Source: Actinomycetes bacterium
GTDB lineage: Bacteria; Actinomycetota; Acidimicrobiia; Acidimicrobiales; JAKAVM01
Length of the DNA stretch: 46,271 nucleotides
Assembly (NCBI GenBank): GCA_021817065.1
Contig: JAKAWH010000006.1
Coordinates: 1-46,271, forward strand
Direction of reading: 5' to 3'
Below, piece by piece: positions 2,554-20,372 of the stretch (position 1 is its first letter; the number at the start of each line of letters is the position of its first letter). The notes below the pieces were generated by a model. The model had not been told where the DNA came from and did no database searches. It saw only the letters and a list, made by a program, of their open reading frames with translations. The translations under genes were made by a program, and so were the position numbers.

Positions 2554-2584
2554 AAAAAAAATCCGCCCACCGGGAAGTGGACGG
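2554..2584 (-). terminator. Intrinsic terminator in the leuB leader (attenuator)
   Basis: On the minus strand an 8-bp stem (CCGTCCAC with GTGGGCGG, one G-U pair) encloses a 6-nt loop and is followed by A and then eight T. This is a textbook Rho-independent terminator. It points toward leuB, ends about 84 nt before the leuB GTG, and has no upstream minus-strand gene to terminate, since greA is divergent. It therefore most likely acts as an attenuator of leuB-ilvE-cimA. Confidence 0.88.
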
Positions 2585-2590
2585 TTGCAG

Positions 2591-2620
2591 GGCGCACGCA
2601 GGGGGAAGGGCGCGTGCGCC
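2591..2620 (-). promoter_or_regulatory. Leader hairpin upstream of the leuB attenuator
   Basis: A perfect 9-bp stem (GGCGCACGC with GCGTGCGCC, 12-nt pyrimidine-rich loop) starts at the stop codon of the candidate leader peptide and ends 6 nt before the terminator stem. The arrangement (peptide, hairpin, terminator) resembles amino-acid biosynthesis attenuators, where a stalled or released ribosome decides which hairpins form. The exact competing pairing is not obvious; the CGCCC at the start of the loop could pair with GGGCG of the terminator. Confidence 0.6.
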
Positions 2621-2685
2621 TAGGTAATTACGATGCCGATCCGAGCGGAGAGAGGAACCTCTCCTGCGGTCAGCCCGGAAGTCAC
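2620..2685 (-). CDS. Candidate Ile/Val-rich leader peptide
   Basis: A 21-codon frame starts with GTG at 2685 and ends ...ARIGIVIT-TAG, so five of the last seven codons before the stop include Ile, Ile, Val and Ile. The TAG lies at the foot of the following hairpin. Regulatory codons just before an attenuator stem are the hallmark of leader peptides of branched-chain operons, and three Ile codons match the proposed isoleucine (citramalate) role of the operon. The GTG has no strong Shine-Dalgarno and the frame is open further upstream to 2844, so the exact start is uncertain. Confidence 0.55.
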   Translation of the reverse strand: MTSGLTAGEVPLSARIGIVIT

Positions 2686-2712
2686 GACTGGTGCGCGCCT
2701 TGCCACGGGGCA

Positions 2713-2742
2713 ATTTTCGCCCAGGATAGGGGGGTCCGTCAA
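2713..2742 (-). promoter_or_regulatory. Candidate promoter of leuB-ilvE-cimA
   Basis: On the minus strand TTGACG (2742-2737) is followed after 18 nt by GAAAAT (2718-2713). Transcription would start near 2706, just upstream of the candidate leader-peptide GTG, giving a leader of about 235 nt before leuB. This is a motif match by eye only. Confidence 0.4.
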
Positions 2743-2820: not shown

Positions 2821-2835
2821 TACCCTGGGGAATGA
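2821..2835 (+). promoter_or_regulatory. Candidate leaderless promoter of greA
   Basis: TACCCT (2821-2826) sits 5 nt before the first greA ATG and 8 nt before the second. No Shine-Dalgarno precedes either. In Actinobacteria a TANNNT -10 at this distance places the transcription start on the start codon. The same TACCCT hexamer precedes the amidase gene. Confidence 0.5.
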
Positions 2836-3341
2836 TGAGAGCAACTCTTCCGGGGCAGAACGGCGGGAGCCCTGCCCAGACCCCCCTTTCCCAAGAGGCC
2901 CACGACCGGCTCCGAGCGGAGCTCGCCGATCTGGTCACCCGCGGCCGTATCGAGATCTCCCAGGCCATCGAAGCAGCCCGAGCTCTCGGCGACCTCTCCG
3001 AGAACGGCGACTACCACGCAGCCAAGGACGCCCAGGGCAAAATGGAGGCCCGGATCCGCCAGATCGAGGCGATGCTGGGCAACGCTGTCGTCGTCGGCGA
3101 CTCCGAGACCGATGACAGCGTGGTGGGCGCCGGGTCGATGGTCTCCATTCGATACGAAGGCGATGACGACGTGGAGCGCTGCCTGATCGGCTCCATCGAG
3201 GAGCGGGTGGAGGGCGCCACCATCGTCTCTCCGAGTTCGCCGCTGGGCCAAGCTCTGGTGGGAAGGTCACCGGGGGACCTGGTTTCCTACGACGCACCGG
3301 GCGGCACGCTCAAAGTCGAGATCGTCGCAATCGGCGAGTGA
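2832..3341 (+). CDS. greA: Transcription elongation factor GreA
   Basis: The 169-aa product stimulates transcript cleavage by backtracked RNA polymerase. It has the N-terminal coiled-coil domain with the GreA signature LGDLSENGDYHAAK around residue 55, whose acidic tip reaches the polymerase active site, and a C-terminal FKBP-like domain ending in SPGDLVSYDAPGGTLKVEIVAI. ATG codons at 2832 and 2835 are both possible; neither has a Shine-Dalgarno and a -10-like TACCCT lies 5-8 nt upstream, so it may be leaderless. It is followed after 12 nt by leuC, an unusual partner. The junction carries a tandem TGAGGCGG duplication. Confidence 0.95.
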   Translation: MMRATLPGQNGGSPAQTPLSQEAHDRLRAELADLVTRGRIEISQAIEAARALGDLSENGDYHAAKDAQGKMEARIRQIEAMLGNAVVVGDSETDDSVVGAGSMVSIRYEGDDDVERCLIGSIEERVEGATIVSPSSPLGQALVGRSPGDLVSYDAPGGTLKVEIVAIGE

Positions 3342-3353
3342 GGCGGTGAGGCG

Positions 3354-4787
3354 GTGACGGTGAGTAGCTCTCTCGCGGGGACGGAACCCCGAACCCTCTC
3401 GGAGAAGGTGTGGGACGCCCACCTGGTGCGCGCCGCCGAGGGCGAACCAGACCTTCTCTTCATCGACATGCACCTGGTTCACGAGGTGACTTCGCCACAG
3501 GCTTTCGACGGGATCCGGCTGAACGGGCGCAAGGTCCGGCGTCCAGACCTCACCATCGCGACTGCCGACCACAATGTACCCACCACCGACATCGACAAGC
3601 CGATTGCCGATCCGATATCAGCCAGGCAGCTGGAGGTGCTCGCCTCCAACTGCGCGGAGTTCGGGATCACCGTCTTCCCGATGGGGCACGCCCGCCAGGG
3701 GATCGTTCACGTCATCGGTCCGGAGCTGGGGCTCACCCAACCGGGAATGGTGATCGTCTGCGGCGACAGCCACACCTCCACTCACGGGGCATTCGGGGCG
3801 CTCGCCTTCGGGATCGGCACCAGCGAGGTTGAACACGTACTGGCCACCCAGACACTCCCCCAGTCCAAGCCGGCCACCATGTCGGTGACTGTGGACGGCG
3901 AACTCCGGCTCGGCACGACCGCCAAGGACGTTATTTTGGCCATAATCGGCGAGATCGGCACTTCGGGGGGGATGGGCCACGTCATCGAGTACCGGGGTTC
4001 GGCGATCCGGTCGCTGTCGATGGAGGGCCGGATGACCGTGTGCAACATGAGCATCGAAGCGGGTGCGCGGGCCGGCATGGTCGCTCCCGACGACACCACC
4101 TTCTCCTATATCGAAGGGCGAGATTACGCACCCCGCGGTGCTGCCTGGGAGGCGGCGCTGGACTACTGGCGCAGCCTCGATACCGATGAGGGGGCCACCT
4201 TCTCCACGGAGGTCACCCTGGATGCCGCCGCCATCGCCCCTCATGTTTCCTGGGGAACCAACCCCTCGCAGGTGATCCCGATCGACGGCGCGGTTCCCTC
4301 TCCCGACGACTTCGCCGACCCGGCTGGGCGCGAAGCCGCCGCCCGGGCTCTCGCCTACATGGGACTCACCGCCGGGACGCCGATTCGGGACATCGCTGTG
4401 GAAACGGTTTTCATAGGATCGTGTACCAACTCGCGTATCGAGGATCTGCGCGCCGCCGCCGCGGTCGTGGAAGGTAGGTCAGTCAAGAGCGGCACGCGGG
4501 CACTGGTGGTACCGGGGTCCCGTCACGTCCGCAACCAGGCGGAAGCAGAAGGTCTTGACACAATATTCACTGCGGCAGGCTTCGACTGGCGCGAGCCGGG
4601 ATGCTCGATGTGCTTGGCGATGAACCCGGACAAGCTGTCGCCCGGCGAGCGATGCGCCTCCACCTCCAATCGCAACTTCGAAGGGCGCCAGGGTCGGGGT
4701 GGTCGCACCCACCTGGTGTCGCCAGCAGTCGCCGCAGCCACCGCGATTGCCGGCCATTTCGCGACACCGGAGGACCTCGATCGATGA
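3354..4787 (+). CDS. leuC: 3-isopropylmalate dehydratase large subunit
   Basis: The 477-aa product is the [4Fe-4S] aconitase-family subunit that, with LeuD, isomerises 2-isopropylmalate, and also citramalate in the alternative isoleucine route. Visible features: [12 protein letters not shown] at the start, [40 protein letters not shown], the cluster ligands in [14 protein letters not shown] and GCSMCLAMN, and the C-terminal [22 protein letters not shown] signature. Length is normal. GTG codons at 3354 and 3360 are alternative starts. It precedes leuD and lies opposite leuB across the greA promoter, so LeuCD and LeuB are controlled from divergent promoters. Confidence 0.97.
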
Positions 4788-4836
4788 GAGCACGCCGTGT
4801 CCCCACCACCCGGACGTCCCGAACCCGGTACGCCCG

Positions 4837-5430
4837 GTGAAGCCTGTTCGCGTCATCCAGGGCAGAGGGGTCCCGCTGGACCGCTCCGACGTCGACACCG
4901 ACCAAATCATCCCGAGCGATTGGCTGAAGCGGGTAGAAAGGACCGGCTTCGGGAGAGGGCTCTTTTCTGAGTGGCGCGACGAACGGGACTTCGTCCTCAA
5001 CAAACCGGAGTACGCCGGGGCCGCCATCCTGGTCACCGGCCCTAATTTCGGTACCGGATCCTCCCGCGAGCACGCGGTGTGGGCTCTGATGGACTACGGA
5101 TTCGAGGCGGTTGTCTCCCCGCGTTTCGGCGACATATTCCGGAACAACTGCACCAAGGCGGGACTCCTCCCCGTTCAGGTCGATCCTGGCACCGGCCGGG
5201 CGATTCTCGACGCCCTCATCGCAGATCCGGCCCTGGAGATCACCATCGACGTCGAGCGGGGGACCATCGAGATACCCGAGGTACGAATCGACGCCGCATT
5301 CCCGCTCGACGAGTTCACCCGGAGCCGCCTCATGGAGGGACTCGACGACATCGGCCTTACTGAGCGTCACGAGTCCGATATCGCCGCCTTCGAAGCCCGG
5401 CGGGCGGAATGGATGCCGGTCGCCCGCTGA
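4837..5430 (+). CDS. leuD: 3-isopropylmalate dehydratase small subunit
   Basis: The 197-aa swivel-domain subunit of isopropylmalate isomerase. It begins VRVIQGRGVPLDRSDVDTDQIIPS and contains the family signature GPNFGTGSSREHAVWAL and RFGDIFRNNCTKAGLLP. The in-frame open region extends upstream into leuC, but the conserved sequence begins at the GTG at 4837, 49 nt after the leuC stop, which gives the usual LeuD length. The end of the gene reads CCCGCTGACTCGCTGA, so an 8-nt segment with the stop codon is nearly duplicated. A 7-bp hairpin at 5472-5488 follows. Confidence 0.95.
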   Translation: MKPVRVIQGRGVPLDRSDVDTDQIIPSDWLKRVERTGFGRGLFSEWRDERDFVLNKPEYAGAAILVTGPNFGTGSSREHAVWALMDYGFEAVVSPRFGDIFRNNCTKAGLLPVQVDPGTGRAILDALIADPALEITIDVERGTIEIPEVRIDAAFPLDEFTRSRLMEGLDDIGLTERHESDIAAFEARRAEWMPVAR

Positions 5431-20226: not shown

Positions 20227-20260
20227 GTCTGCTCCGAGATGTCGATGTCTACGGCAGACG
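20226..20260 (-). promoter_or_regulatory. RBS-sequestering helix of the fluoride riboswitch
   Basis: CGUCUGC (20260-20254) and GCAGACG (20232-20226) form a 7-bp helix with a 21-nt loop. The left strand shares CGUC with the fluoride pseudoknot; the right strand covers the end of the GGAG Shine-Dalgarno and the first base of the GTG. The two structures exclude each other, so fluoride binding should free the ribosome-binding site. No terminator T-run is present, in agreement with translational control. Confidence 0.7.
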
Positions 20261-20302
20261 CCATCAGCCCGCACGGGCGCTCGCGGGGAGCGTCATCCCC
20301 GC
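20252..20302 (-). ncRNA. Fluoride riboswitch (crcB motif)
   Basis: On the minus strand: P1 stem GCGGGG/CCCCGC (20302-20297 with 20288-20283) with loop AUGACGCU; P3 GCCC/GGGC (20278-20275 with 20270-20267); then UGAUGGCGUCU. Loop GACGC (20294-20290) pairs perfectly with GCGUC (20261-20257), the known pseudoknot. The layout and the GGGCUGAUGGC segment match the Thermotoga petrophila fluoride aptamer, with the pseudoknot changed from GAGGC/GCCUC to GACGC/GCGUC, a compensatory change. It precedes two crcB genes, the classic target. CGUCUGC (20260-20254) can instead pair with GCAGACG (20232-20226) over the crcB start. Confidence 0.93.
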
Positions 20303-20372
20303 CGTCACGAGAATTCCCGCAACCGGCAAACTCACTTTACCGTAAGAGACGAGCCCGGCCCCGCCCATCCCC

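Follow-up and report, generated by a model that had tools for sequence, protein, structure and literature searches.

A putative ribosome-mediated attenuator of leuB-ilvE-cimA reading isoleucine and valine supply, and its relatives before branched-chain amino acid genes of Acidimicrobiia

In the trp and ilv attenuators of E. coli, the choice between RNA structures depends on whether the ribosome stalls at control codons or gets as far as the stop codon. These leaders have a Shine-Dalgarno site and a strand common to antiterminator and terminator, unlike the leader described here, which belongs to the same broad kind as those of C. glutamicum ilvBNC and M. tuberculosis ilvB1. In M. tuberculosis, the ilvB1NC attenuator has control codons for branched-chain amino acids (BCAA) in a short upstream frame, or uORF (LVVI, with GUA), followed by a Rho-independent terminator as in our case, and mutating the LVVI codons abolished ilvB1 induction (PMC13236596). 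That leader is 166 nt long with mutually exclusive terminator and anti-terminator, whereas we found no overlapping antiterminator here; the system was described before ilvB1, whereas the targets here include leuB-ilvE-cimA, cimA and leuA (PMC13236596). The ilvBNC and ilvB-II leaders of Corynebacterium also resemble ours in their BCAA codons and two abutting hairpins of which the second is the terminator, and probably in a start near the transcript 5' end (PMC10272879, PMC11857589); transcript and leader frame of C. glutamicum ilvBNC start one nucleotide apart (PMC11857589). There, however, most of hairpin P1 lies within the uORF and three bases are common to antiterminator and terminator, whereas here the first hairpin (A) starts at the stop codon and has no base in common with the terminator (T) (PMC10272879, PMC11857589).

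Leader peptides of actinobacterial ilvB and leuS were already predicted in 2005 (PMC1262725). This ilvB/leuS/LEU set has genes, BCAA codon runs and ilvB terminators in common with the present one, its mode of regulation having been left open, and it contains neither leuB-ilvE-cimA nor cimA (PMC1262725). Its LEU element is a pseudoknot acting at the leuA Shine-Dalgarno site, which makes the base stem together with the Leu codons (PMC1262725); unlike it, the leuA copies found here, examined for the two-hairpin layout, have a hairpin and an intrinsic terminator. The mycobacterial polycysteine uORFs, as far as they are presented in PMC13236596 (Canestrari 2020, cited therein), are leaderless short ORFs with runs of control codons, as the frames found here probably are, but they precede cysteine genes, and the leaders of mycobacterial cys operons reportedly lack a conserved terminator hairpin (PMC1262725).

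We analysed a window of 46,271 nucleotides, which is the whole stretch of acidimicrobial DNA considered here (contig JAKAWH010000006.1). The leader occupies positions 2554-2742 of the minus strand, and the leuB start codon, GTG 2470, lies 84 nt downstream of it. leuB, encoding 3-isopropylmalate dehydrogenase (1454-2470; NCBIfam NF002898, 481 bits), is the first gene of an operon that continues on the same strand with ilvE, encoding branched-chain aminotransferase (470-1393; NCBIfam NF005146, 457 bits), and with the 5' part of cimA, the citramalate synthase gene, which is cut by the contig end (1-384; its translation resembles the CimA N-terminus matching TIGR00977). On the other side, the neighbour is a divergent greA-like transcription factor gene (2832-3341, plus strand), so that the terminator serves no upstream gene, as the preliminary description of this DNA had stated. 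The greA-like gene is followed by leuC- and leuD-like ORFs (3354-4787 and 4699-5430, plus strand), and the same divergent sequence upstream of leuB is visible in many relatives. Elsewhere in the window, a fluoride riboswitch aptamer (RF01734), the only Rfam family to reach its gathering score, was found at 20248-20309 on the minus strand, with 34.4 bits for a gathering score of 34.

The order promoter, short frame, hairpin, terminator that had been proposed for the minus strand was found with all its parts. The promoter candidate, TTGACG-18-GAAAAT, was recognised by consensus at 2713-2742 (TTGACG 2742-2737; GAAAAT 2718-2713). The leader peptide frame, probably leaderless by comparison with relatives, has 28 codons from GTG 2706 to TAG 2620 (2620-2706; MARRAPVVTSGLTAGEVPLSARIGIVIT). 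It ends with ATC GGC ATC GTA ATT ACC TAG, in which the control codons ATC GGC ATC GTA ATT (Ile-Gly-Ile-Val-Ile, sense positions -6 to -2) occupy 2626-2640 and the stop codon 2622-2620. Hairpin A (2591-2620; fold and covariation) is located at the stop codon as had been described, but its stem has 10 bp and not 9 (arms 2620-2611 and 2600-2591), its first base being the last base of the stop codon. After a spacer of 6 nt (2585-2590; fold) comes the intrinsic terminator T (2554-2584; consensus and fold); its eight T had been correctly read, while its stem (2584-2563) has 9 bp, not 8, and is followed by an A before the eight T (2562-2554). The stretch of A and T folds with z = -4.8, none of 200 shuffles being equally stable. 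Taken alone, the consensus matches were not significant, neither for the promoter (1 found for 0.6 expected) nor for the terminator (4 found for 3.0 expected); it is therefore the comparison with relatives that carries the case.

For this comparison, upstream regions were taken for the leuB orthologues of relatives, almost all belonging to the same order, and the same device was observed in about 35 of 59 leuB loci. An intrinsic terminator between the leader frame and the first gene is conserved in the homologues. The exact pattern of T gave 82 matches in GTDB genomes, nearly all labelled Acidimicrobiia or Actinobacteria, of which 80 could be parsed; all 76 matches with enough downstream sequence stand before leuB. 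One contig labelled Acidobacteriota (JAGWNV010000183.1), whose leuB leader and operon start look typically acidimicrobial, probably comes from a mislabelled or contaminated genome bin. The preliminary description had suggested looking in related genomes for covarying stems and for conserved Ile/Val codons upstream of leuB, and both are present. In an alignment of 60 homologues, hairpin A covaries, with changes on both sides in 8 of the 9 pairs counted, while the T stem is almost invariant in leuB-type leaders, an invariance that partly reflects selection by the search pattern and is also seen in most loci found via leuB. Within the leuB-type T stem (loci L001-L139), a mid-stem U.G wobble is kept in 55 of 60 sequences, and the invariance of the arms exceeds what base pairing demands.

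Two covariance models extended the family. The model R1 had matches in 184 of 296 genomes of the class, which comprises bacteria of soil and water that have received little study. R2 was built from 35 copies at other loci and in other genomes, with no sequence from the genome of the window, and recognised the leader of the window in its own genome with E = 2.9e-9; of 178 Acidimicrobiia genomes with a completeness of 90% or more, 154 had matches, most often two or three per genome. All these genome counts are those of samples in which related genomes are not independent. In the genome of the window there are two further leaders, before leuA (MKGLRTSSNLLLT, then stop) and before ilvB (MIRPSTILVVT, then stop). 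In total, 218 elements were collected, whose downstream genes are leuB (108), ilvB (69), cimA (33), leuA (6), leuS (1) and an uncertain one near serA (1), totals that are biased, the lists having come from models seeded with leuB and BCAA leaders, a bias to which a third, codon-free model (R3) is a partial answer. The extra matches of R3 inspected at E < 1e-3 were all before BCAA genes, and beyond about E = 0.007 only chance matches appeared, except one weak leuA leader; the idea of a module common to other amino acid operons was thus rejected, although R3 counts for less than R1 and R2, its only paired structure being the terminator.

In 205 of the 218 elements, stem A begins on the stop codon's third base, and the spacer between A and T measures 0-8 nt with a median of 4. 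The spacer is 85% pyrimidine and the loop of A 52% C over the same 218 elements. Copies of the ilvB and cimA types are present in other families of the phylum too. Locus L199 (G363:C123:31236-31317), which belongs to another family of the phylum, has Leu codons in its copy of the device and precedes a leucyl-tRNA synthetase gene. At a second locus of G363 (L200, C78:705-786), similar hairpins follow a frame ending in LTRRSNK and the stop, without BCAA codons, about 1.2 kb before a serA-like gene; this locus may have diverged from a typical copy or match by chance.

We then compared the codons at the control positions, defined as sense codons -5 to -2, with the downstream gene. Over the 218 elements, the end-product codons of the short frame, whose translation is putative, track the type of the downstream gene. 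Leaders of cimA are almost purely isoleucine, with Ile at -2 in all 33, at -3 in 32 and at -4 in 31, while those of leuA have Leu at -4, -3 and -2 in 6/6. The penultimate sense codon (-2) is Ile in 101 of the 108 leuB leaders, which also carry Val at -5 in 79 cases, and ilvB leaders show Val, Leu and Ile mixed at these positions. Codon choice is also unusual: GTA makes up 60% of the Val codons in leaders versus 3.9% in downstream genes (about 15-fold), and ATT 37% of the Ile codons versus 9%. Such rare codons at control sites are what is expected of a sensitive sensor. The argument that Ile codons fit a citramalate operon holds, since cimA is the third gene, in the order leuB-ilvE-cimA, in 34 of 36 leuB-leader loci and the leaders directly before cimA are the nearly pure Ile ones. 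Among the sampled genomes, a leuB leader was found in 101, a set obtained partly from R1 matches of at least 62 bits, and a cimA leader in 33, with no genome in common; genome G009 of family f7, for example, has a leader before cimA, and none was found before leuB.

The leader peptides are probably leaderless, with the transcript 5' end at or next to the start codon. Among 120 leaders with a recognised TTGAC..xAxxxT promoter, an in-frame start is found 6-10 nt after the -10 box in 97, 5' ends being predicted here from the sequence alone, and TANNNT boxes cluster 6-10 nt before a start in the correct frame only. This geometry of the homologues points to GTG 2706, located 6 nt after the -10 box, as the start in the window. 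The 21-codon frame previously described keeps its ending, Ile-Gly-Ile-Val-Ile-Thr-stop, but its start at GTG 2685 is less likely in view of the distance of 6-10 nt between -10 box and start in homologues.

Taken together, these comparisons of sequences indicate that the element is very probably a ribosome-mediated transcription attenuator of leuB-ilvE-cimA sensing the availability of charged Ile-tRNA and Val-tRNA. The earlier proposal of an isoleucine/valine attenuator serving the citramalate route is thus supported; ribosome stalling, its effect on termination and the opposition of A to T are what we infer from it. Transcription would begin with the leader start codon or right beside it, so that the ribosome would load on the 5' end and need no Shine-Dalgarno site. 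With ample isoleucine and valine, it would reach the stop codon, its footprint would cover the 5' arm of A, T would form and transcription would end before leuB. If isoleucine or valine is short, the ribosome would stall two to five codons before the stop, A would form, T would be prevented and the operon would be read.

The leading edge of a ribosome lies about 12 nt beyond its A-site codon. With such a footprint, hairpin A stays free when the ribosome is starved at positions -5 to -3 and has at most about four bases covered by a ribosome at -2, while its 5' arm is covered by a ribosome at the stop codon. By this geometry, hairpin A is positioned like the antiterminator of a classical attenuator. 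A strand common to antiterminator and terminator was nevertheless not found, A and T having no overlap and standing 0-8 nt apart. The pairings A3':T5' and A5':T3' were weaker than shuffled controls in leuB, ilvB and cimA leaders, cross-pairing of A with its own T was no better than with T from other genomes, and pairing of the A loop with T3' was no better than with the loop reversed. No antiterminator formed by A3':T5', A5':T3', A loop:T3 or leader codons:T was clearly above controls in all gene types. Moreover, at equilibrium T is predicted to form whether the 5' arm of A is free or masked (mean probability 0.97 and 0.94, respectively). These results count against the explanation, in that they offer no structure to link stalling with read-through.

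As no strand is common to A and T, we tentatively favour, over strand exchange, a direct interference of the adjacent hairpin A with T, to which a ribosome stalled close against A may contribute. A stricter version, rather doubtful, would make the stop-codon hairpin an antiterminator that shares no base with T: intact A would sterically block T, and a ribosome at the stop codon would remove A. If this were true, attenuation would proceed without strand exchange, and a block of leader translation would turn the operon on, not off. The main rival to interference by proximity is the classical scheme, in which a base-paired antiterminator forms only for a short time and so escapes equilibrium folding, for instance A3' with T5', or the loop of A, rich in C, with the G-rich T3' arm. 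We regard it as a serious possibility, short of an even chance: classical attenuators work in this way, the hairpins of C. glutamicum ilvBNC abut and overlap by three bases (PMC11857589), and pairing between the P1 loop and P2 is described for the Corynebacterium ilvB-II motif (PMC10272879). The A5':T3' pairing of leuB leaders has a mean energy of -7.6 kcal/mol, and their A3' and T5' arms allow a helix with mismatches. The results with shuffled letters, foreign T and reversed loops argue against such a structure.

Other explanations do without sensing by the ribosome. The leader could be constitutive, T and A fixing a level of read-through and the peptide being no sensor; codon mutations in the S. 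coelicolor ilvB leader were without effect, according to the mention of that work in PMC1262725, a result that also speaks against the attenuator. A constitutive leader is improbable here, because codons matched to the downstream product in five gene types and a GTA enrichment of about 15-fold are unexpected of a passive leader. It is quite improbable, too, that a regulatory protein or a small molecule binds the hairpins, as a protein-binding element or riboswitch in which the frame matters little. The near invariance of the T arms in leuB leaders, including the U.G wobble, would suit such a factor, and involvement of a protein has been proposed for the LEU element of actinobacteria (PMC1262725), but among ilvB, cimA and leuA copies the sequences of A and T vary freely while the codon content and the position on the stop codon are kept. 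In addition, no Rfam family reached its gathering score at the leader, T-box included, and nothing below it was convincing, the best sub-threshold match being sX13 with 22 bits versus 50. An ordinary terminator beside a random short frame, finally, would account for promoter and terminator matches at chance level; this arrangement by chance has next to no probability and is already refuted by conservation, given the 76 of 76 homologous matches before leuB, the covariation, the gene-matched codons and the lack of a same-strand upstream gene.

Nothing relevant on an attenuator of cimA or in Acidimicrobiia was found in the literature searched, according to which the new elements are the leuB-ilvE-cimA and cimA targets with Ile codons, the class-wide re-lettered set, the hairpin anchored at the stop codon and the missing overlap. 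With more than 200 natural examples that have no competing antiterminator, the block of intrinsic termination by a neighbouring hairpin becomes directly testable, and the missing antiterminator may bear on unexplained results with the ilvB and leuA leaders of Streptomyces. Isoleucine is indicated as the signal for the citramalate route, a control of cimA of which we found no other case in the literature searched. One portable leader, its codons re-lettered for each pathway, would thus control the BCAA genes of a class with few cultured members.
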